DNA from: Pseudochryseolinea flava
GTDB taxonomy: Bacteria > Bacteroidota > Bacteroidia > Cytophagales > Cyclobacteriaceae
Direction of reading: 5' to 3'
DNA length: 64,000 bases
Assembly: GCF_003286915.1 (NCBI RefSeq)
Contig: NZ_QMFY01000003.1
Coordinates: forward strand, 186,001 to 250,000
Both the position numbers and the translations under genes were made by a program. Under the pieces are notes generated by a model, which made no database searches, had not been told where the DNA came from, and worked only from the letters and a program-made list of their open reading frames with translations. Numbering within the stretch: position 1 is the first letter of the stretch; every line of letters starts with the position of its first letter. Shown one piece after another: positions 22,203-60,017 of the stretch.

Positions 22203-23552
22203 ATGTTTAAAAAAATATTGATTGCTAACCGCGGTGAAATCGCCTTGCGTGTTATCCGTACCTGCAAAGAGATGGATATCAAAACTGTCGCGGTATACTC
22301 GACAGCCGATCGCGAAAGTCTTCACGTACGTTTCGCTGACGAAGCAGTATGTATTGGCGATGCCCCTAGCAAAGATTCTTATCTCAATATTCCGCGCATT
22401 ATTTCAGCAGCAGAAATCACAAACGCGGATGCCATCCATCCTGGCTATGGCTTCCTTTCTGAACGCGCTGAATTTTCTGCTATCTGTCACGAATACGGTA
22501 TTAAATTCATCGGCCCTACACCTGCCATGATCAACGCTATGGGCGATAAGTCCACAGCAAAGGATACCATGAAAAAAGCGGGTGTACCGACCATTCCCGG
22601 TTCTGATGGTTTGCTCGACTCTATTGAGCAAGGATTAGAGCTCGCCAGAGAGATTGGTTACCCTGTAATTGTGAAAGCTACTGCCGGTGGTGGTGGAAAA
22701 GGTATGCGCATCATCAACGAAGAAGGCGAATTCAAAAAAGCTTGGGATGATGCTAAACGCGAAGCTGGTGCATCTTTCGGAAACGACGGATTGTATCTTG
22801 AGAAATTTGTAGAAGAGCCACGTCACATTGAAATACAAGTGATGGGTGATCAATACGGCAAAGTATGCCATCTTTCCGAACGTGATTGCTCAGTACAACG
22901 TCGCCACCAGAAGTTGGTAGAAGAAACACCATCTCCGATCGTAAGCCAAGAGCTTCGAGAGAAAATGGGTGAAGCTGCTATCAAAGGTGCTAAGGCAATC
23001 AACTACGAAGGTGCAGGAACGATCGAGTTCCTTGTCGATAAACACGGCAAGTTCTATTTCATGGAAATGAATACGCGTATCCAAGTAGAGCACCCTATCA
23101 CGGAAGAAGTAACAGACTACGATTTGATCAAAGAACAAATCAAAGTTGCTGCCGGTGTACCGATTTCTGGAACAAACTATTTCCCAAATCTCTACGCGAT
23201 GGAGTGTCGTATTAACGCCGAGGATCCTGCGAACGGCTTCCGTCCTTCACCAGGAAAAATCCTCAACCTTCATTTACCAGGTGGTCACGGCGTACGTGTC
23301 GACAGCCACGTCTATGCAGGTTATACAATTCCACCAAACTACGATTCAATGATCGCTAAGCTTATTGTGAGCGGTCAATCTCGCGAAGAAGTTATTACGC
23401 GGATGAAACGTGCTTTAAGTGAGTTTGTAATCGAAGGTGTGAAGACCACAATTCCTTTCCACTTGAAGTTGATGGACAACGCCATCTTCCGCTCTGGAAA
23501 ATTCACGACGAAATTCCTCGAGACATCATTTGATTTTTCGCAGTTGAAATAA
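22203..23552 (+). CDS. accC: Biotin carboxylase subunit of acetyl-CoA carboxylase
   Basis: ATP-dependent carboxylation of biotin on AccB. The 449-residue length and order are standard: [19 protein letters not shown] at the N-terminus, ATP-grasp glycine loop [13 protein letters not shown], the metal and active-site block ATP-binding [21 protein letters not shown], and RINAEDP later. The TAA is followed immediately by the arm of the four-helix-bundle element. Confidence 0.97.
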
Positions 23553-24075
23553 GTTCACGGTTCACGGTTCACCGTTCACAGCAAAAGTGCGGATGGTGTA
23601 TCGTGAACCTATCTCAAGCTTTTCCTCAGTGATTGAATCTTGATAATCATTGTTTCCACCTGCTGATAAAAGAGACTGAATACATTTTCGTCTATGAAAC
23701 CCTTCGTCCGCGCCAGGTAAAGACATCCAATCACTTCAATTCCAGACCTTACAGCATACCCCAAAAATCTCCCGAATTCAACTTTGGTTTGGCCTGTAGA
23801 ACCTTCTGCGATATTCAAACTAACTGAATCGCTTGCTCGCCTGATCTGCGAGGTTAATCCATAAATTTCTTCCTTGGGAAATCCCTTTGTTAAATCGTAA
23901 ATACTTCCGGAATTATTAACCGAAAGCTTCCAGACTTCAAGTCTTTCGAAATTGAATGCCATAAAACAAATTGGTTTAAACTTTAACACAACGTTTTTGA
24001 TATACACAACAGGGCGCTAACACCCCACAATTTTTCATCCGTCATCCGTGAACCGTCAAACCGTGAACCGTGAAC
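23553..24075. mobile_element. Four-helix-bundle gene flanked by word-repeat inverted arms (element 1)
   Basis: The ends GTTCACGGTTCACGGTT (23553-23569) and AACCGTGAACCGTGAAC (24059-24075) are perfect 17-base inverted repeats; both arms continue with degenerate copies of GTTCAC or GTGAAC. Between them lies a single S23/IVP-type gene on the minus strand. The left end starts at the first base after the accC stop codon; the right end is four bases from the DUF3109 stop codon. The structure resembles a 23S rRNA intervening sequence, in which an ORF lies within a stem. No transposase is present. Confidence 0.5.
23609..23962 (-). CDS. Four-helix bundle protein, S23/IVP family
   Basis: A 117-residue protein (from ATG 23962; the frame opens further upstream). 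The opening LEVWKLSVNNSGSIYDL, then FPKEEIYGLTSQIRRASDS and NIAEGS, is the signature of the family first described as proteins encoded in 23S rRNA intervening sequences (TIGR02436). Avd, the accessory protein of diversity-generating retroelements, belongs to the same fold. Such proteins form pentameric barrels and bind nucleic acid; the general function is unsettled. It lies alone between inverted arms, opposite in strand to accC. A related copy is at 54775-55128. Confidence 0.9.
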   Translation of the reverse strand: MAFNFERLEVWKLSVNNSGSIYDLTKGFPKEEIYGLTSQIRRASDSVSLNIAEGSTGQTKVEFGRFLGYAVRSGIEVIGCLYLARTKGFIDENVFSLFYQQVETMIIKIQSLRKSLR

Positions 24076-35208: not shown

Positions 35209-37101
35209 ATGCGTCGAAGGTTTCATATCATCCTCATCCTTTTAAATTGCTTCTTCCTGACGGCAGCGTATGCGCAACCGTACATGGGTAATAACAACCT
35301 GATGGAGGTCGATCAAATCAAAGGATGTGCACCTTTTGAATTCACAGTAAAGCATCCTGCCTGTGGCGCTGGAAATTGTACAGCGCTATTTTTGGATCCA
35401 ACCAACCCATCGATCGTACTGGGCACGAAGCAGCCCTTCTTCGACGGCGACTTGCTCACGCGCGCTGATGCTGGAGGATTCATTCTTCAAATCGTCACGG
35501 CATCGAGCACGACCAACGACGATTTGTTAATGGAGGTCATCCCGAACGTAACGCCCACATTTAACGTATATGCTTGTCAAAATGGAAGCGTACAAGTGGA
35601 TATTACAGATGCGCAATTTGATCATTATAAAATTGCCGGCGCAGGCCCCGAGGTAACACGCGATCAAGGCGATCCGCCTTTCGTGTATAATTTCCCGATG
35701 CCGTACCCTGCCGACGCCGTAATCCGCGTACGTGGTGTTGATGATAACATGGCCGACAATTGCGATGAAAGCTCTAAAACTGTTCCGATCGCGACAATCC
35801 CTCCTATTGCCATCCGCTCAGTTTCAGTTCCAGACGCCAACATCGTTGAGCTTACGCACGACGCAAACCCGGCCATACAATATCGCTTGATGATTGCAAC
35901 CGATAATGAAACCACGTTTACGCCCGATAAAACAATTTACGACCCGCCAACCAATATTGAAACACTCGGATCGCTATCACCCGACAATCATTACTATTGT
36001 TTAAGACTCGACATCATAAGTCCGTGCAACAATGCTGTGATGGGCAATTCGAATGTGGTGTGTAGCATCAACTTCGATGCTACTGCGCTTAACAATGTGA
36101 ATGAATTGACTTGGACAACCGGCGCATCAACCACCGGTTTGACGTTACATAAAGACAACACCCCAATACCTGTGGCTTCATCACCATACATGGACAACAG
36201 TGTTGTTTGCAACACGCCGTATATCTATCAACTCACCGCCAATTTTGGTGCAGCTACCAGTACGTCGCTTACCAAAACGATCCGTGCGACCTCAACGAAC
36301 ATACCCGATAAGGTCGCCAATATTTCAACTGCCGTCGAGGGAACACAAGTAACGCTAGACTGGCAGCAACCCTCTGGCTATACCGCAAGCGCTTATACCA
36401 TTCGAAAAACAGTCGGTCAAAACACTGGCCCCATCGCCAATGTCGCGGCCCTCACTTTTACAGACAATGCATATGTACCTGAGGCTTGTTACACGATTCA
36501 ATACAAAGACTTCTGTGGCAACACCAGTATCATAAGTGATCCGGCTTGTCCTATCGTGCTGTCGCATGTTTTGCGTGCTGATAATACGATCGATTTGAAT
36601 TGGACAAACTATGTTGGGTGGGCACAAGGCGTCGACGTGTATGAAGTTTATCAAGATGGAACATTGTTGACAACAACATCGGGCACTACCCACACCGTTC
36701 CGAATGACGCGGTACAACAAGTTCACGTCTATGAAATCGTCGCGATTCCCCGAGAGATCACAGTTCCCCCGGTTATCGTCTCATCTTCGAACTTACTGGA
36801 GACGATTAAAGCTCCGAATCTTTTTTATCCAACGGCCTTCGTTCCAGAAAGTCCAATTGCTGAGAACAAAGCCTTTAAAGTTTTCGGACAATTCATCCAG
36901 CACCTTGAATTCAAGATTTTCAATCGCTGGGGAGAGTTAATGTACTACACGACAGAGCTTAGTTCAGCGGGATGGGACGGCACCTACAAGGGGAACATGA
37001 TGCCGGAGGGAACATACGTTTTCACCGCCAAGTTAACGGACTTCGCAGGGCGTACATTCGAGCGATCAGGAACAATTGTGTTGCTGAGGAAAAATCGGTA
37101 G
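35209..37101 (+). CDS. Secreted protein with type B gliding-motility C-terminal domain
   Basis: A 630-residue exported protein. Signal peptide MRRRFHIILILLNCFFLTAA then a cleavage site near AYAQP. The body consists of tandem Ig/fibronectin-like modules with regularly spaced Cys. The last ~75 residues carry the sorting domain: LFYPTAFVPESP, FKIFNRWGELMYY, GWDGTYKG, MPEGTYVFTAKL. This is exported by the type IX secretion system. Its ATG adjoins the hutH stop with no spacer. Role unknown. Confidence 0.88.
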   Translation: MRRRFHIILILLNCFFLTAAYAQPYMGNNNLMEVDQIKGCAPFEFTVKHPACGAGNCTALFLDPTNPSIVLGTKQPFFDGDLLTRADAGGFILQIVTASSTTNDDLLMEVIPNVTPTFNVYACQNGSVQVDITDAQFDHYKIAGAGPEVTRDQGDPPFVYNFPMPYPADAVIRVRGVDDNMADNCDESSKTVPIATIPPIAIRSVSVPDANIVELTHDANPAIQYRLMIATDNETTFTPDKTIYDPPTNIETLGSLSPDNHYYCLRLDIISPCNNAVMGNSNVVCSINFDATALNNVNELTWTTGASTTGLTLHKDNTPIPVASSPYMDNSVVCNTPYIYQLTANFGAATSTSLTKTIRATSTNIPDKVANISTAVEGTQVTLDWQQPSGYTASAYTIRKTVGQNTGPIANVAALTFTDNAYVPEACYTIQYKDFCGNTSIISDPACPIVLSHVLRADNTIDLNWTNYVGWAQGVDVYEVYQDGTLLTTTSGTTHTVPNDAVQQVHVYEIVAIPREITVPPVIVSSSNLLETIKAPNLFYPTAFVPESPIAENKAFKVFGQFIQHLEFKIFNRWGELMYYTTELSSAGWDGTYKGNMMPEGTYVFTAKLTDFAGRTFERSGTIVLLRKNR

Positions 37102-37193
37102 TCAGGAGACAGGAGTCAGGAGTAAGAAGTAAGTATATCTGTGATTCCAGCTTTAAACTTTCTACTTTCTACTTTAAACTTTAAACTTTCTAC
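37101..37193. repeat. Word-repeat element after the secreted-protein gene
   Basis: Left part GTCAGGAGACAGGAGTCAGG then AGTAAGAAGTAAGTA; right part copies of CTTTAAACTTTCTAC. The two sides are only partly complementary (AAGAAGTA against TACTTTCT). It begins on the last base of the stop codon at 37101. Confidence 0.5.
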
Positions 37194-37201
37194 AGAACCA
37201 C

Positions 37202-40857: not shown

Positions 40858-40881
40858 AGTTATTGGTTATCGGTAGCTAGA

Positions 40882-41012
40882 AGTCCCAAGCCCCAAGCCC
40901 CAAGCCCCACGTCCCAAGCCCCAAGTCCCAAGCCCCACGGCCCCAGCCCCAAGTCCCAAGTCCCAAGCCCCAAGCTCCAAGCCCCAAGTCCCAAAACCCA
41001 AGGCCCACAAGC
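40882..41012. repeat. One-armed CCCAAG word array upstream of pdhB
   Basis: About 130 bases made of variants of CCCCAAG and TCCCAAG, with occasional CCACG. No complementary GGGG-rich arm is present. It lies between a terminator and pdhB. The minus strand reads as a Gly-Leu-Trp repeat frame, which I consider an artefact. Confidence 0.75.
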
Positions 41013-41096: not shown

Positions 41097-42077
41097 ATGA
41101 GAGAAATCCAGTTTAGAGAGGCCCTCCGTGAGGCCATGAATGAAGAAATGAGACGGGATCAGAGCATTATCCTGATGGGCGAAGAAGTAGCTCAATACAA
41201 CGGTGCTTACAAAGTAAGCCAAGGTATGCTCGATGAATTTGGCCCGGATCGCGTCCTGGATACTCCTATTGCAGAACTTGGATTTGCAGGTGTCGGCGTC
41301 GGTGCTGCTATGAACGGCCTCCGCCCGATCATTGAATTCATGACTTTTAACTTTTCCTTGGTTGCTATCGACCAGGTAATCAACGCTTCCGCAAAGATTC
41401 TTTCTATGTCTGGCGGACAATACAGCAACCCTATCGTATTCCGCGGTCCTACTGGTAACGCCGGACAATTAGGCGCGCAGCACTCTCAAAACTTTGAGAA
41501 TTGGTATGCTAATACACCTGGTTTGAAAGTCGTGGTACCTTCTAACCCATACGACGCAAAAGGTCTGTTAAAAACTTCTATCCGCGATAACGACCCGGTA
41601 ATCTTCATGGAATCGGAGTTGATGTATGGCGATAAAGGCGAAGTTCCTGTTGAAGAATATCTTATTCCGATCGGTGTCGCTGACGTTAAACGACAAGGAA
41701 CGGATGTGACGATAGTCTCTTTCGGTAAGATTATGAAAGTGGCATTGGCCGCGGCAGAAGAATTAGCGAAGGAAGGAATCTCTGTTGAAGTAGTTGACTT
41801 ACGCTCTGTAAGACCTATTGACTACGCAACAGTTGTTGAATCTGTAAAGAAGACGAACAGACTTGTGGTTGTTGAAGAAGCTTGGCCATTGTCGTCTATC
41901 GCAACGGAAATCACTTACCACGTGCAGCGTCACGCATTCGATTACCTTGATGCCCCTGTATACCGCGTCAACAGCTTCGACGTGCCACTACCGTACGCAC
42001 CTACATTGATCCAAGCAATCTTACCTAACGTTGAGAAAACCGTGAAGGCAGTGAAAGCTGTAATGTATCGCGATTAA
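41097..42077 (+). CDS. pdhB: Pyruvate dehydrogenase E1 component subunit beta
   Basis: Beta subunit of the alpha2beta2 E1 of the pyruvate (or related 2-oxoacid) dehydrogenase complex. From ATG 41097 it has 326 residues and the standard order REIQFREALREAMNEEM, ILMGEEVAQYNGAYK, DTPIAELGFAGVGVGAAM, NASAKILSMSGGQ, and SNPYDAKGLLKTSI, ending with VPLPYAPTL. The alpha subunit is not adjacent, which is common in Bacteroidetes. The open frame extends upstream to 41031 without similarity. A -7 box is not obvious. Confidence 0.93.
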   Translation: MREIQFREALREAMNEEMRRDQSIILMGEEVAQYNGAYKVSQGMLDEFGPDRVLDTPIAELGFAGVGVGAAMNGLRPIIEFMTFNFSLVAIDQVINASAKILSMSGGQYSNPIVFRGPTGNAGQLGAQHSQNFENWYANTPGLKVVVPSNPYDAKGLLKTSIRDNDPVIFMESELMYGDKGEVPVEEYLIPIGVADVKRQGTDVTIVSFGKIMKVALAAAEELAKEGISVEVVDLRSVRPIDYATVVESVKKTNRLVVVEEAWPLSSIATEITYHVQRHAFDYLDAPVYRVNSFDVPLPYAPTLIQAILPNVEKTVKAVKAVMYRD

Positions 42078-42250
42078 AGGGAGTAAGAATCAAGAAGTAA
42101 GAAGTAAGAAGTAAATTCTCTCACTGTAAATACAAAAGCCTCAATACCCTTGAGGCTTTTTTCATTCACAAGATTTGCCTTAATTCTTACTACTTACTCC
42201 TCATTTCTGACTTCTGAATCCTGATTTCTGAACTCCTTACTTCTTCCTCT
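42078..42250. repeat. Inverted word-repeat element between pdhB and the rhomboid gene
   Basis: Left arm GGGAGTAAGAATCAAGAAG plus AAGTAAGAAGTAAGAAGT; right arm TTAATTCTTACTACTTACTCC and CTCCTTACTTCTTCC among CTGAATCCTGATTTCTGAA words. The complementary units are GGAGTAAGAA and TTCTTACTCC. The arms run from the pdhB stop codon to the stop codon of the rhomboid gene, and a terminator sits in the loop. Confidence 0.7.
42134..42162. terminator. Bidirectional terminator in the loop of the inverted element
   Basis: Stem AAAAGCCTCAA/TTGAGGCTTTT with a five-base loop and T6 run; the flanking A tract makes it work on either strand. It serves the converging pdhB and rhomboid genes. Confidence 0.85.
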
Positions 42251-52655: not shown

Positions 52656-53615
52656 TTATCCTTTGGTATTTTTTAGAAGTTCACTCAACACCGCTTGTGC
52701 TGCCCAAACTCTATTGGAAGCTTGTTGTGTTACAATACTGTTTGCGCCGTCAAGAATTTCATCGCTAAGCTCTACGTTTCTTCTAACAGGAAGGCAATGC
52801 ATTACTTTCGCATGATTCGTTTTCAGCAGCTTCTCATTGGTAAGCATCCATGCCGGATCATTGCAATAGATTCTGCCGTAGTCATTATAAGTGCTCCAGT
52901 TCTTGACGTATACAAAGTCTGCATCACGTAACGCATAGTCCTGATCATGTGTGATCGAGGCACCTTGCGTAAATTGCTTGTCGAGTTCGTAATCCTCCGG
53001 ATGCGTAATCACAAAATCAGCTTCGCCCCAAGCGTTCACCCACTGCGAAAAACTATTACCAACGCACTGTGGCAGCGCTTTCACATGCGGCGCCCAGGTC
53101 AACACAATTTTGGGTCGGCGCTTCTCTTTGAAATGCTCTTGGATCGTGAGTATGTCGGTTAGACTCTGCAATGGATGTAACGTTGCACTCTCTAAACTTA
53201 ACACGGGAATGCCAGCGTATTTGATGAATTGCTTAATGTATAACTCGCTGTAGTCATCGGCTTTATTTTGAAGCGATGGGAATGTGCGAATCGCCAAGAT
53301 GTCGAAATAGTTTCCTAAAATCGGTGCCGCGTCTTTCACGTGCTCCACCGTGTTTCCACTCATGATGGCCTCTTCTTCAAACTCGAGCGTCCATCCATCT
53401 TGACCAACGTTGAAGACGATTGCCTCCATACCAAGGTTGGCCGCGGCAACTTGTGTACTCAAACGCGTACGCATACTTGGATTCAAAAAGATCAAACCGA
53501 TGCGTTTACCTGCGCCGGCTTGTTTATTCTTCAAGGGATCTGCTTTGAAATCAAGTGCCTTTCTTACAAGGCCATTGATATCTTGTACGTCTTCTACGGA
53601 AATAAAATTTCTCAT
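52656..53615 (-). CDS. argF': N-acyl-ornithine carbamoyltransferase (AOTCase/SOTCase type)
   Basis: Transfers carbamoyl phosphate to acylated ornithine. The 319-residue product has the carbamoyl-phosphate loop NPSMRTR (residues 45-51), an HPLQSLTD segment and MHCLPVRRN. It has features of the acetyl/succinyl-ornithine group: an insertion with FNVGQDGWTLEFEEEAIMSGNTVEH. By recall, the residue before EH (here Val90) separates the acetyl type (Glu) from the succinyl type (Pro, or Val/Ser in mutants). Thus a succinyl-ornithine substrate is possible. It overlaps argD by four bases. Confidence 0.85.
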   Translation of the reverse strand: MRNFISVEDVQDINGLVRKALDFKADPLKNKQAGAGKRIGLIFLNPSMRTRLSTQVAAANLGMEAIVFNVGQDGWTLEFEEEAIMSGNTVEHVKDAAPILGNYFDILAIRTFPSLQNKADDYSELYIKQFIKYAGIPVLSLESATLHPLQSLTDILTIQEHFKEKRRPKIVLTWAPHVKALPQCVGNSFSQWVNAWGEADFVITHPEDYELDKQFTQGASITHDQDYALRDADFVYVKNWSTYNDYGRIYCNDPAWMLTNEKLLKTNHAKVMHCLPVRRNVELSDEILDGANSIVTQQASNRVWAAQAVLSELLKNTKG

Positions 53616-54733
53616 GCTAATTCTTCTTTCAATGCGTTCAACAAAAGGTCAGCTTCCTTACGTGTCATTGCCAACGAAGGCAACAGTCGAATAGTATTCG
53701 GCTTGGCTTCGCCGGTAAAAATGTGATGCTTGAACAAAAGATCATTGCGAACACTTTTCTTTTCTTCAGGCAAATCAAATCCGATCATCAGGCCTTCGCC
53801 TCTAACATCCGTGATTGATTTAATTTTCTTCAGCTCGGCGATCAAATACGAACCTATCGTTGCAGCGTTATTCAACAGCTGTTCATTTTCCATCACTTCA
53901 AGTACTGCCAAACCCGCTGCAGCAGCAAGATAGTTACCACCGAAAGTAGTTCCTAACATTCCACTCCATGGTTTGATGCTGCCTTCAATGAGTACGCCAC
54001 CGATCGGGAAGCCATTACCCATACCTTTAGCCATCGTGATCAAATCAGGTTTCACGCCCGAAAATTGATGCGCAAAGAACTTACCGGTTCTACCGTAGCC
54101 ACTTTGAATTTCATCGAGTATCAATAGCGCACCGAATGCTTTACATGTTTTCTCCAAATGCTGCAGAAACGCGTTGGTTGGCAATTGTATTCCACCTACG
54201 CCTTGGATCCCCTCGATGATCACCGCTGCCACTTGATTGTCCATCACAGCATCGAACGCTGCTTCGTCATTCATGGGAACGAACACGATCTGGTGTCCTG
54301 CATTAAAAGGCGCCACGATCTTTGGATTATCCGTGGCGGCAACAGCGCCGGATGTTCTTCCGTGAAATGCTTTCTTGAAGGCAACGATTTTCTTTCTACC
54401 TGTTACAAACGATGCGAGCTTCAGTGCATTCTCATTTGCCTCCGCACCACTGTTACAAAGAAAAAGTTGGTAATCCGGGTAGCCCGACAACTGACCAAGC
54501 TTCTCAGCAAGTTTTTCTTGCAATGGATTTTTTACACTATTTGAATAGAATGCAATATTGCTGAGCTGCTGATTCAGCGTCTTCACATAATGTGGATGAG
54601 AATGACCAATCGAAATAACCGCGTGGCCACCGTAGAGGTCTAAATATTTTTGCCCTTTGTCATCCCAAAGCCACGAAGCTTCTGCTTTTACAGGAGTAAT
54701 GTCGAAGAGGGGGTATACGTCGAACAACTTCAT
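53612..54733 (-). CDS. argD: Acetylornithine/succinylornithine aminotransferase
   Basis: PLP enzyme making N-acylornithine. From ATG 54733 the product is 373 residues. YGGHAVISIGHSHP, CNSGAEANENALKLA, LILDEIQSGYGRTGKFFAH and LITMAKGMGNGFPIGG (Schiff-base Lys in MAKGMG) are present. The frame begins at a TTG further up inside a repeat arm; the ATG is preferred. It follows argC in pathway order but an IVP-type element separates them. Confidence 0.95.
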   Translation of the reverse strand: MKLFDVYPLFDITPVKAEASWLWDDKGQKYLDLYGGHAVISIGHSHPHYVKTLNQQLSNIAFYSNSVKNPLQEKLAEKLGQLSGYPDYQLFLCNSGAEANENALKLASFVTGRKKIVAFKKAFHGRTSGAVAATDNPKIVAPFNAGHQIVFVPMNDEAAFDAVMDNQVAAVIIEGIQGVGGIQLPTNAFLQHLEKTCKAFGALLILDEIQSGYGRTGKFFAHQFSGVKPDLITMAKGMGNGFPIGGVLIEGSIKPWSGMLGTTFGGNYLAAAAGLAVLEVMENEQLLNNAATIGSYLIAELKKIKSITDVRGEGLMIGFDLPEEKKSVRNDLLFKHHIFTGEAKPNTIRLLPSLAMTRKEADLLLNALKEELA

Positions 54734-54740
54734 TTTTATA

Positions 54741-55197
54741 GAGTTCAAAGTTGAAAGTTAAAAGTTTAAAGTTTTTAGTTTCTTAATTTTTGAATCAAGG
54801 AGATCAGCATCGCTTTGACTGCACCGATATCTTGAGACACAATTTTATATTTCTTATCATCCACATATTCTAGTTCACGCGACAGAAAACAGAGGTATTC
54901 AGTCTCCTGAGTTGAACCCAATGCAACTTGCAAATAATTAGCAAAGTCTGATTGAGTATACTTTCCACACCCCTCGACAATATTTGTCGGAATAGATGTC
55001 GTTGATCGTCTTACTTGTGATGTCAGGTTAAATCGCTCCTCCTTTGGGAAGGAGCGCGTTATCTGATAGATGAGCAATACCAATTTGTGAGCTTTCTGCC
55101 ACACAACGAGTTTTCGATAATCTTGCATAATACAACGGTTTTAAAATCACAATGAAATATCACTTAACCTCAACTTTAAACTTTCAACTTTCAACTC
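54741..55197. mobile_element. Four-helix-bundle gene flanked by inverted arms inside the arginine operon (element 2)
   Basis: The left arm GAGTTCAAAGTTGAAAGTT (54741-54759) and the right arm at 55179-55197 (AACTTTCAACTTTCAACTC) match 18 of 19 positions as inverted repeats. Both arms extend as degenerate AAAGTT/AACTTT words. The only gene inside is S23/IVP-like and runs with the operon. The arms fill the spacer from 8 bases before the argD ATG to near the argC stop. Words differ from element 1, yet the layout is the same. Confidence 0.5.
54775..55128 (-). CDS. Four-helix bundle protein, S23/IVP family
   Basis: A 117-residue protein with the family order LVVWQKAHKLVLLIYQI, FPKEERFNLTSQVRRSTTS, NIVEGCGKYTQSDFANYL and ETEYLCFLSREL. 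It is a homologue of the protein at 23609-23962. Its TAA lies within the left arm. It is on the same strand as the arginine genes, so it would be translated from the operon mRNA. A role in arginine synthesis is not expected; it looks like a passenger. Confidence 0.9.
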   Translation of the reverse strand: MQDYRKLVVWQKAHKLVLLIYQITRSFPKEERFNLTSQVRRSTTSIPTNIVEGCGKYTQSDFANYLQVALGSTQETEYLCFLSRELEYVDDKKYKIVSQDIGAVKAMLISLIQKLRN

Positions 55198-55232
55198 TAA
55201 CCTATGCAATACCTTGCTTTCTGCTTTAAGCT

Positions 55233-56210
55233 CTAGAAGACAATACTCTTAAGCCTTACCCCCGTCGTCTCCTCCAACCCGAACATCAAATTCATATTCT
55301 GTACTGCTTGCCCCGATGCGCCTTTCAAAAGATTATCGATCGCTGTGTGAACGACTACTTTATCGCCTTCCTTCTCTAAACCTATTAGACACTTGTTTGT
55401 ATTGACTACCTGTTTCAAGTCTACTGTACCGTCGGTGACAACAGCAAAAGGATGTCCCGCATAGAAATCTTGATATAGTTTTTTAAGTTCTTCCAATGAG
55501 CGATCGGTTGTAATGACGCTACTCACAAAAATTCCGCGCGTAAAATCTCCTCTCCATGGGATGAAATTAATGGGCGCTGCAAACGCAGGCTGAAGTTGTT
55601 TCAACGATCTGTTGATCTCTTTCAGGTGCTGATGTGTAAGTGTTTTGTATGCTGAGATATTATTCGCTCTCCAGGTAAAGTGTGTTGTATCTTGAAGTTT
55701 CTGACCCGCTCCTGTCGAACCGGTAATACCCGTTGCAAATACTTCTTTCAATGCATTCGACTTTGCGAGTGGAAGAAGCCCCAACTGAATCGCGGTAGCA
55801 AAGCACCCTGGATTCGCCACGTTCTTCGATTTCTTGATCGCTTCTCGGTTGAGTTCAGGCAAGCCGTATACAAATTCACGACCGGGAAGGGATTCTCCCA
55901 AACGAAAATCTTGGCTTAGATCGATCACGCTTATAGACGCATCGATCGGGTTGTCTTGCAGAAATTTTTTACTCTCACCATGACCTAAGCAAAGGAAGAT
56001 CACATCCACCTTGTGTTGTAATGAGTCTGTGAACTTCAGATCTGTGTCACCTTCAAGATCAGGGTGCGCTTCATATAGTGGATTACCCGCATTGCTGCGA
56101 CTGTGAACGAATACAAGCTCGACCTGTGGGTGATTGATAAGAAGTCTGATCGTTTCACCACCGGTGTATCCTGCACCGCCGATAATACCTACTTTAATTT
56201 TATTGGACAT
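55233..56210 (-). CDS. argC: N-acetyl(succinyl)-gamma-glutamyl-phosphate reductase
   Basis: NADPH-dependent reduction to the semialdehyde. The 325-residue product has KVGIIGGAGYTGGETIRLL (NADP binding), the catalytic Cys in VANPGCFATAIQLGLLPL, and the C-terminal part with the His in PINFIPWRGDF (INFIP in place of NxxPH). Complete. It lies between argG and the four-helix-bundle element. Confidence 0.95.
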   Translation of the reverse strand: MSNKIKVGIIGGAGYTGGETIRLLINHPQVELVFVHSRSNAGNPLYEAHPDLEGDTDLKFTDSLQHKVDVIFLCLGHGESKKFLQDNPIDASISVIDLSQDFRLGESLPGREFVYGLPELNREAIKKSKNVANPGCFATAIQLGLLPLAKSNALKEVFATGITGSTGAGQKLQDTTHFTWRANNISAYKTLTHQHLKEINRSLKQLQPAFAAPINFIPWRGDFTRGIFVSSVITTDRSLEELKKLYQDFYAGHPFAVVTDGTVDLKQVVNTNKCLIGLEKEGDKVVVHTAIDNLLKGASGQAVQNMNLMFGLEETTGVRLKSIVF

Positions 56211-58771: not shown

Positions 58772-58961
58772 ACAGTTCACAGATGACAGTTCACAGATGA
58801 AGTTTCCCAGTTGACAGTTCACAGATGACAGTTCACAGATGACAGTTCACAGATGACAGTTCACAGTTGACAGTTAACAGATAACCTTGAACCGTGAACA
58901 GTTAACCGTGAACAGTTAACCGTGAACCGTTAACCGTTAACCGTAAACCATGAACCGTGAA
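58772..58961. repeat. Long inverted word-repeat element after porP
   Basis: The left arm is five or more tandem copies of ACAGTTCACAGATG; the right arm is copies of AACCGTGAAC and CAGTTAACCGTGAAC. TTCAC/GTGAA units are complementary. It ends at the stop codon of porP and is the longest of these arrays (about 190 bases). Confidence 0.8.
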
Positions 58962-60017
58962 CTAAAAGTCAGGACAAGGAATAACCAATTTATCCTTCGG
59001 TGGTTTGCGCGGGTTGCGCATAGGCCAAGTGTAAACAAGACTAAACTCGTGGGCGCCGCCACTACCGATGCCCAACTTCGAGATGGTGTAGTCAAAACTA
59101 TAACCAATATTGATGGCGTCTTTCGCGCCAAGTTGCGTGAAGCCTAACAGCAACACAATCGATTCGTTGTTTCCGATTCCCTCGAGACTTTTAAAGGGCA
59201 CCCCGCGATACCATGTACCCAATACGATGGGCTCAAATGTGAAGTACAACCCGAGATCTAGCTGGTCAAATTTCCCTTGGTGGCGAAATTGAAACGCTGG
59301 CGAGATACTACGTTCTGAATTACGCATCTGTCCGGCTTGCCCTTTTACACCGGGCTTCATCTTGAATTTAAATCCGCCGTGCAATGAATATTTAATCGGA
59401 AGTGGGCTGTCTTCGCCGATAAGACTCTGATTTGGCCGCGTGAGATGCCATGCTGAAACACCGAGCCATGCATTCCTCGTGAAGAGCACGCCGCCAAAAG
59501 AAAGGTCAACAAAAGTTTTGGCCGAGGTCGTATTAAAACTCTCTGCAGTTCGTGTATCAATCAATTCGCCAGTTTGTTGGTCAAACTGATCCCCAAAAGT
59601 AAGCTTGCCAAAATTGATGTCGCGATTAAAAATTGCTACTTGTACTCCGGGCCGAAAGCCCAGGTAATCATTGATCTGAAGTTCATAGGAATATTGAAGG
59701 CCAAGGCTCAAAGAGCGCAAGCCTGCAAGCCCTTCTGAGTCATTGGTGATGATCGCACCGATACCGCTGTTTTTATCCTCAATAAAATAATCGAAGTAAG
59801 CTGAGAATGTACGGAAGTTTGCATCGATAGCCGGCCATTGATTTCGATAATTCAACCCAGCACGCGCCTGTCCTGTTGCACCTGTCAGCGCAGGATTCAG
59901 ATACAATGGTGCCGCGTAAAATTGAGAAAATTGAGGGTCCTGGGCAGTTACCGCACCTTCCACCAACAGCATTAATAAGAACAGTACCAGTAAAAATTTC
60001 TGCTTCACGTTATACAT
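58962..60017 (-). CDS. PorP/SprF family type IX secretion system membrane protein
   Basis: A 351-residue outer-membrane barrel-like protein (ATG 60017). Signal peptide ends near VTAQDPQ; QFSQFYAAPLYLNPALTGA and NYRNQWPAI are the family signature (YNQFSQFYxxPLxLNPAxxG). In gliding relatives SprF is needed to secrete the adhesin SprB; other PorP proteins sit beside giant type B cargo proteins. Here it is divergent from such a protein with a 203-base spacer. Confidence 0.92.
   Translation of the reverse strand: MYNVKQKFLLVLFLLMLLVEGAVTAQDPQFSQFYAAPLYLNPALTGATGQARAGLNYRNQWPAIDANFRTFSAYFDYFIEDKNSGIGAIITNDSEGLAGLRSLSLGLQYSYELQINDYLGFRPGVQVAIFNRDINFGKLTFGDQFDQQTGELIDTRTAESFNTTSAKTFVDLSFGGVLFTRNAWLGVSAWHLTRPNQSLIGEDSPLPIKYSLHGGFKFKMKPGVKGQAGQMRNSERSISPAFQFRHQGKFDQLDLGLYFTFEPIVLGTWYRGVPFKSLEGIGNNESIVLLLGFTQLGAKDAINIGYSFDYTISKLGIGSGGAHEFSLVYTWPMRNPRKPPKDKLVIPCPDF

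Follow-up and report, generated by a model that had tools for sequence, protein, structure and literature searches.

An S23/IVP gene between inverted heptamer arrays in the arginine operon of Pseudochryseolinea flava: a possible mobile spacer cassette

The S23/IVP gene described here is encoded in Pseudochryseolinea flava (assembly GCF_003286915.1, contig NZ_QMFY01000003.1). The window, meaning the whole stretch of DNA that was analysed, is 64,000 nt long (contig positions 186,001-250,000, forward strand), and coordinates are those of the window. The gene (54775-55128, minus strand) is an ORF of 117 aa located between argC (ORF at 55233-56210, minus strand), the cistron upstream, which served as the query for relatives, and argD (53612-54733, minus strand), the cistron downstream. 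The argD ORF spans 53612-54748, and the ATG at 54733 was chosen by eye as its likely start. The S23 protein has the conserved domains PF05635 (E-value: 9.5e-36, 122.7 bits against a curated cut-off of 33.8) and TIGR02436 (E-value: 3.3e-35, 120.6 bits against a cut-off of 24). Its AlphaFold model (pLDDT 97.3) consists of four helices (residues 8-26, 29-54, 59-85 and 91-116) and matches the crystal structure 2gsc, a four-helix bundle, with a TM-score of 0.95. The solved relatives 2gsc and 2rld contain five chains each, and their titles describe proteins that are hypothetical or of unknown function. Eight S23 genes are found in this genome.

The gene is flanked by two arms, which are not plain inverted repeats: each is built from repeats of a 7-nt word (AAAGTTG with its variants on one side, inverted as AACTTTNA on the other). 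In the sense of the gene, the 5' arm is a heptamer array of the AAAGTTG type (55172-55203, minus strand) and the 3' arm is an inverted heptamer array of the AACTTTNA type (54739-54773, minus strand). The inverted segments are 54739-54766 and 55172-55199 (93% over 28 nt) or, with an alternative extent, 54742-54773 and 55172-55203 (88% over 32 nt); in the best alignment, 26 positions match and 2 differ. The window's other S23 gene (23609-23962, minus strand) has a 3' arm at 23552-23579 (minus strand; GTTCACG words on the plus strand) and a 5' arm at 24048-24075 (minus strand; CGTGAAC words on the plus strand), whose alignment shows 25 matching bases, 2 mismatches and a gap of one base. When periods from 4 to 20 were scanned in the window, only period 7 (with 14) gave arrays that pass a strict cut. 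No ORF of at least 60 aa other than S23 lies between the arms of the argC-argD copy, so no transposase is carried inside. The region 54500-55500 has no Rfam match up to an E-value of 1, and the locus is an operon spacer outside the 23S rRNA gene, where 23S intervening sequences lie. The first-pass annotation had placed an S23 gene, oriented with the operon, between argC and argD, within inverted arms matching at 18 of 19 core bases and with no transposase in sight. The gene order and the single strand of all three genes are as described, the arms match at 26 of 28 bases and are somewhat longer than claimed, and the absence of a transposase holds for the space between them. Its further statement that the copy at 23.6 kb has the same design with another word is also correct, the word being GTTCACG, and its view of the element as a discrete unit in an operon spacer is supported.

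The motif AAACCGTTGTATT lies directly 5' of the S23 start (55129-55141, minus strand), and similar motifs precede other S23 copies of the genome. A motif near AAACCGTTGTGTT is seen at or near the start codons of S23 genes at 55129-55141 and 23985-23997 (minus strand) and at loci L002, L003, L006 and L007, and is common to several S23 copies of this genome despite their differing arm words. The window contains five matches to the AAACCGTTGTGTT-type motif at up to two mismatches (2.45 expected).

S23/IVP is a common family, with a match in 116 of 148 genomes of the phylum; none was found in the other 32, nor in 12 of 59 relatives. The anatomy of the cassette recurs across phyla. S23 flanks were collected from 117 loci, 37 from the order and 80 from named genomes of many phyla; the latter are the best matches to the window S23 protein, which makes the set a non-random one. 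Six loci were dropped before the counts over 111 loci, four because of a broken frame or a fragment (L017, L075, L135, L145) and two because of a short flank (L027, L095). With an array defined by 18 matches of 28 within 150 nt of the gene on at least one side, a period-7 array accompanies S23 at 93 of 111 loci, compared with 39 of 4800 random 150-nt windows, the latter taken from 16 genomes of this order while the S23 loci span other phyla. The same cut at periods 5, 6 and 8 yields 2, 4 and 10 of the 111 loci, and 18 of the 111 have no period-7 array in either flank. The match rate at lag 7 within 120 nt of S23 is 0.386 on the 5' side and 0.364 on the 3' side, versus 0.259 in distal sequence; lags 14 and 21 are raised too and other lags are flat. 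Arms are mutually inverted above the 95th percentile of cross-locus pairing at 84 of 111 S23 loci versus 16 of 344 other genes, so inverted arms at S23 genes are more than chance. The insertion idea of the first-pass annotation was to fall if the arms were not conserved as inverted pairs elsewhere; they recur as such at S23 genes across phyla. Co-orientation with the operon, also noted there, is real: both neighbours are on the S23 strand at 80 of 98 loci, compared with 148 of 257 control triplets (P 2e-5; 13 of the 111 loci were dropped, eight with distant neighbours and five at an edge).

S23 genes are found on plasmids as well (33 records matched). Four cyanobacterial plasmid regions were examined (L248-L251), and all four copies have heptamer arrays, two on both sides and two clearly on one. 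Two plasmids of Calothrix brevissima NIES-22 share 3.6 kb at 97.5% identity, a stretch that holds an integrase gene, an S23 cassette and two further genes. Ten S23 loci were found on viral contigs.

Several other arrangements were seen. A divergent S23 gene at L008 (G000:C1:1363-1674) lies between tRNA-Arg and tRNA-Ser genes on the same strand; it has a long branch in the S23 tree, and its inverted arms are not above the null. At four Flavobacterium loci (L088, L100, L101, L258), S23 seems by eye to lie between two complete word hairpins, not single arms. At L244 and L245, S23 genes of different clades occupy successive operon spacers, before fadA and an acyl-CoA dehydrogenase gene. By coordinates alone, genomes G007, G084, G112, G157 and G179 have two S23 genes 1.6-1.7 kb apart.

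The words of the arrays obey a common grammar, whose conserved core is AGY in the sense of the 5' arm. Each array was folded to seven positions and one common matrix was learned. In the sense of the 3' arm the grammar reads [AG]-C-[TC]-N-A-N-A, with C at 92-95%, and in the sense of the 5' arm NTNTNAG, with G at 95%. The grammar score is 2.24 for 61 arrays and 2.48 for 78 arrays, versus maxima of 1.58 and 1.78 with permuted word positions. Conservation inside the arrays depends on position: agreement between the units of an array in 5' arms at positions 0 to 6 is 0.84, 0.96, 0.75, 0.66, 0.73, 0.43 and 0.52, from 0.96 at the core C to 0.43 at the freest position. The permuted control, with its best set at position 1, gives 0.56, 0.99, 0.70, 0.70, 0.70, 0.58 and 0.62. 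Since slippage should treat all positions alike, these values suggest that selection keeps the AGY core of the 5' arm at a fixed pitch. Published heptamers can be compared with the grammar, the comparison being our own and drawing on the available portions of the papers. TAACTGA of Beggiatoaceae (PMC4679880), read as ACTGATA, fits the 3'-arm rule, and the Coxiella heptamer GACAGAT (PMC4990558), read as ATGACAG, fits the 5'-arm rule.

Words are inherited with S23 lineages. Word similarity follows S23 identity over 93 loci (Mantel r 0.41, 0 of 1000 shuffles) and does so between phyla, which were assigned by hand from record titles (Mantel r 0.39, 0 of 2000); the latter result holds with shuffling within phyla or with GC difference removed. 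At 51 held-out loci the correlation is again found (Mantel r 0.27, 0 of 5000 shuffles), and prediction from the nearest training protein recovers 3.94 of the 7 letters of a held-out word versus an average of 3.35 (P 0.003). S23 copies of one genome have no terminal sequence in common, and their word sharing (2.90 of 7 letters, 21 pairs) is no higher than that of copies from different genomes (3.06, 475 pairs). Taken with the Mantel results, this indicates that the word belongs to the S23 lineage and not to the genome. The earlier suggestion that the arms are not simply copied with the gene therefore fails as worded: same-genome copies do differ, but words track the S23 lineage. The co-variation of word and protein may reflect co-inheritance or recognition.

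A residue code, in which residues 2 and 59 would specify word position 0, was strong in the first 70 non-redundant loci and failed in held-out loci. The frozen rule was right at 16 of 54 held-out loci (13.5 expected by shuffling; 21 redundant loci dropped) and at 23 of all 75 (18.5 expected). Words without C at position 1 were dropped from the residue tests (three held-out, one training). In the held-out loci, residue 2 keeps a weaker link to the word (z 3.8, rank 20 of 805), and none is left for residue 59 (z -0.8). A looser trend, picked after seeing the data, pairs R or K at residue 2 with G or C (12 of 14) and H with A or T (10 of 11). It is inseparable from descent, the independent contrasts being few (three on starred branches among those listed), and is not relied on here.

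When the argC-argD spacer is folded in silico as RNA, 38 arm bases are paired, 32 of them with the opposite arm (duplex -37.8 kcal/mol). Half or more of the arm is predicted to pair with its counterpart at 54 of 84 loci. Selection on pairing would predict an excess of G-U over A-C mismatches and arms that are alike in register. No excess of G-U is found among arm mismatches at 84 loci (86 versus 111, P 0.087), and identity between arms at 46 loci is no higher than that between registers of one arm (0.773 versus 0.756; register-specific test, P 0.13 for positions 3-6). Both tests being negative, they give no sign of selection on pairing as such. The two arms have the appearance of arrays of a single site running in opposed orientations.

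The cassette is present at some sites and absent from the same sites in relatives. The argD gene adjoins argC at 19 of 30 argC loci of relatives (15 by motif script, four by eye). An intact S23 cassette is found in three of these 19 spacers, namely in this genome, in G023 of the same family and in G053 of another family, and the words differ among the three. One of seven species of the genus has S23 at this site. By eye, the spacer of G011 has a truncated S23 with arms, that of G051 an inverted word pair without a gene, and those of G001 and G005 heptamers without a gene; several other relatives have a tight spacer. The first-pass annotation had asked whether relatives always have the gene here with unrelated flanks, which would have told against insertion, and most lack the gene. 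Measured against the other named sites only, S23 proteins form groups by site in the S23 tree: argD (including a fourth copy, in G137; support 90), groEL (12 proteins; support 93) and lpd (five proteins; support 91). The fadA and acyl-CoA dehydrogenase sites require four changes each on this tree.

The groES-groEL spacer was followed in Flavobacterium, where S23 lies in four of the best 30 GroES loci from 81 genomes, one of them broken. The 26 spacers lacking S23 have words that differ from those of S23 carriers; at least two AG at pitch 7 are found in 23 of them and at least three in 14, versus two AG at pitches 5, 6, 8 and 9 in 4, 5, 5 and 2 spacers and three in none. AC..AC pairs in S23-less groES-groEL spacers (L252-L281) show one peak at distance 7 (37) and a second at distance 9 (25). 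A groEL tree was built from 38 rows, 12 of them with S23, and on it the presence of the S23 gene requires 10 changes versus a shuffled mean of 10.5. Eight of the rows were chosen because they bear S23, so S23-bearing species are over-represented; L083 was dropped. The strongly supported branches force at least three changes. The sisters L262 (with S23) and L263 (without) have groEL genes 97.8% identical over 850 bases, while their spacers, words included, are wholly different apart from the last dozen bases; the spacer was thus exchanged as a unit, and S23 was present or absent with it. No clean insertion, and no empty site with a target duplication, was found among the loci compared. Such a spacer swap could come from homologous exchange between strains. 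The median dN/dS of the groES-groEL S23 genes is 0.058 (38 finite values of 55 pairs, 11 genes), an estimate that points to strong purifying selection on S23 in this set.

Arrays without a gene also occur, as tandem 7-nt units in intergenic DNA. The window has two-word arrays at 37092-37196 (AGTCAGG and ACTTTAA types), which match the arms of L003 and L001 of the same genome, an AAGCCCC array at 40872-41008, which matches the arms of L006 of the same genome, inverted arrays round a terminator-like hairpin at 42077-42250, which have no special match to resident arms, and inverted arrays at 58772-58965 (ACAGTTC/ACAGATG, then AACCGTG), which match the arms of L001 and L005; none of these is assigned to a strand. 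Using seven of the eight S23 copies of the genome and equal-sized arm sets, five of seven gene-free window arrays fit resident S23 arms more closely than they fit any of the 60 sets drawn from other genomes of the order. One of these five also finds a match in 7 of 60 sets drawn from other phyla, and the remaining two arrays fail the comparison. In G023, none of three gene-free arrays matches the resident arms (six of eight S23 copies used). Under a single cut, seven array hits lie in the 64-kb window (S23 arms included) versus none in 100 kb elsewhere in the genome. Ten S23-bearing genomes have nine arrays in 1.0 Mb, found in 4 of 50 stretches with five in one stretch, and six S23-less genomes have none in 0.6 Mb (30 stretches); the arrays and the stretches are few.

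The proposed model, to which we give about an even chance, is that the unit is a mobile spacer cassette and that a pentameric S23 protein binds the arrays of its own cassette. The arms look like arrays of one site in opposed orientation, and such arrays make plausible ends for a DNA unit, which favours a mobile cassette; they would be better placed as DNA ends than as sites on single-stranded RNA. The cassette, a single S23 gene enclosed by inverted arrays of the same 7-nt word, would be seated in operon spacers. S23, which has five chains in its solved relatives, would bind arrays of its own word with roughly one subunit per word, and the two inverted arrays would act as the ends of the mobile unit, as do the multi-site terminal repeats of other elements. 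Movement or copying of the unit would depend on an enzyme supplied by the cell, as none is encoded inside. Gene-free arrays would be derivatives or relics of the cassette, and its operon orientation and foldable arms may allow it to be transcribed at low cost. In favour of this model are the period-7 arrays at 93 of 111 loci, the common grammar, the position-dependent conservation, the words that track S23 lineage but not genome, the low dN/dS, the scattered presence at groES-groEL with its spacer swap between sisters, the grouping of the groEL-site proteins, the five gene-free arrays that match resident arms, the plasmid arrays and the two negative pairing tests. Against it stand the failed residue rule, a co-variation of word and protein that co-inheritance could produce, the absence of a clean insertion among the loci compared, the imperfect site groups at fadA and acyl-CoA dehydrogenase, the gene-free arrays of G023 and the 18 loci without an array.

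The main rival is an RNA-level reading, that of the first-pass annotation, in which the unit is the counterpart, in an mRNA spacer, of a 23S intervening sequence. The arms would pair, RNase III would cut the stem, the S23 message would be released and the argC and argD messages separated, with the protein a passenger. The predicted folds agree with this, both at argC-argD (32 of 38 paired arm bases) and at 54 of 84 loci, as do the 80 of 98 loci with both neighbours on the S23 strand and the Coxiella 23S intervening sequence, which, in the part of the paper available, combines a terminal stem, an S23 ORF, heptamers and an RNase III cut (PMC4990558). We nevertheless consider it unlikely, as there is no G-U excess (86 versus 111, P 0.087), identity between arms is not above that within an arm, a stem requires neither a phase-locked 7-nt core nor words that follow the protein, and strong purifying selection on S23 is unexpected for a passenger. 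A quite improbable reading is that S23 is an array-binding operon regulator that serves the cell, spacer arrays being its control sites and S23 lying beside a target. The argD, groEL and lpd copies each forming one group versus other named sites, the dN/dS of 0.058, the 23 of 26 S23-less groES-groEL spacers in which two or more AG at pitch 7 are kept, and the fad operons with S23 in two successive spacers (L244, L245) would all suit a regulator. Such a role sits poorly with an S23 presence at groES-groEL that is scattered like random labels, with the lack of S23 matches in 32 of 148 phylum genomes and 12 of 59 relatives, and with the unrelated words of same-genome copies.

Two further readings carry very little weight. 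In one, S23 would partner a reverse transcriptase encoded in trans, in the manner of Avd from diversity-generating retroelements (DGRs), and the arrays would be the products. The protein does resemble Avd (DivGenRetAVD E-value: 7.2e-9; 8ube and 4dwl, TM about 0.8) and the genome has two RVT_1 matches, but these are on contigs C45 and C14, neither of which bears any of the eight S23 genes, and the cut-off of the Avd model is missed (35.9 versus 80 bits), which leaves this reading highly improbable. That the arrays are ordinary slippage microsatellites, gathered by chance around a tolerated small gene, is disfavoured and barely credible. Heptamer repeats are over-represented in bacteria according to the available part of PMC4692102, and heptamer copy number varies between Coxiella strains according to that of PMC4990558, but slippage does not explain the inverted orientation, the grammar shared across phyla, the position-dependent conservation or the 93 of 111 loci versus 39 of 4800 windows. 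Returning to the mobile cassette, a wider proposal, made tentatively and at somewhat below even chances, is that S23/IVP genes and bacterial heptamer arrays form one phylum-spanning class of minimal mobile elements. In this class a ring-shaped protein would read an AGY core every 7 nt, with a word for each lineage, gene-free arrays would be derived forms, and 23S intervening sequences would be a branch settled in rRNA.

MITEs and transposons with multi-site terminal repeats have inverted ends and occur in gene-bearing and gene-free forms. Unlike these, the S23 unit has no transposase, its copies share no common end sequence, and no target duplication was seen. If the wider proposal is true, it would bring in a further kind of element, one that exchanges operon spacers (among them groES-groEL and argC-argD) and lacks its own transposase.

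Heptamer arrays are a class of repeats that has been described but not explained. The available portions of two papers report TAACTGA heptamers in Beggiatoaceae, Cyanobacteria and Bacteroidetes (PMC4679880) and the repeats GGGAATC in Xanthomonas and GGGGA(T/C)T in Nostoc, with 70 and 75 convergent heptamer pairs in two Xanthomonas genomes (PMC4692102). As far as these portions describe them, the published repeats are like the S23 arrays in their 7-nt period and mostly intergenic position and, in Xanthomonas, in their inverted pairs. The accessible text of PMC4679880 contains neither "S23" nor "four helix", and that of both papers neither "four helix bundle" nor "intervening sequence". No literature tying S23 genes in general to heptamer arrays was found in a search whose coverage leaves out most subscription journals. 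If S23 and the arrays belong together, the arrays are a likely ligand of the S23 protein.

The window S23 protein has the same fold as Avd of DGRs (TM about 0.8) and belongs to a related family; the available text of a DGR paper remarks on the likeness of PF05635 and Avd (PMC10053308). Unlike Avd, it falls below the Avd equivalog cut-off and has arginine genes in place of an adjoining reverse transcriptase.

The closest known relative in design is the 23S intervening sequence, which like the window unit has an S23-family ORF between terminal inverted repeats. In the accessible portion of PMC4990558, that of Coxiella is closed by a terminal stem of 28 bp, contains an S23 ORF preceded by tandem GACAGAT heptamers, and is cut by RNase III in vitro. 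The same portion also names Leptospira for 23S intervening sequences that encode S23p, describes the S23/IVP family without a known function and describes the Coxiella ORF as undergoing reductive evolution (PMC4990558). The window unit differs from the Coxiella sequence in lying in an mRNA spacer and in having arrays on both sides, and the estimated strong purifying selection on the groES-groEL S23 genes contrasts with the reductive evolution described there for the Coxiella ORF. The wider proposal, if true, would explain why S23 ORFs lie between stems in 23S rRNA.
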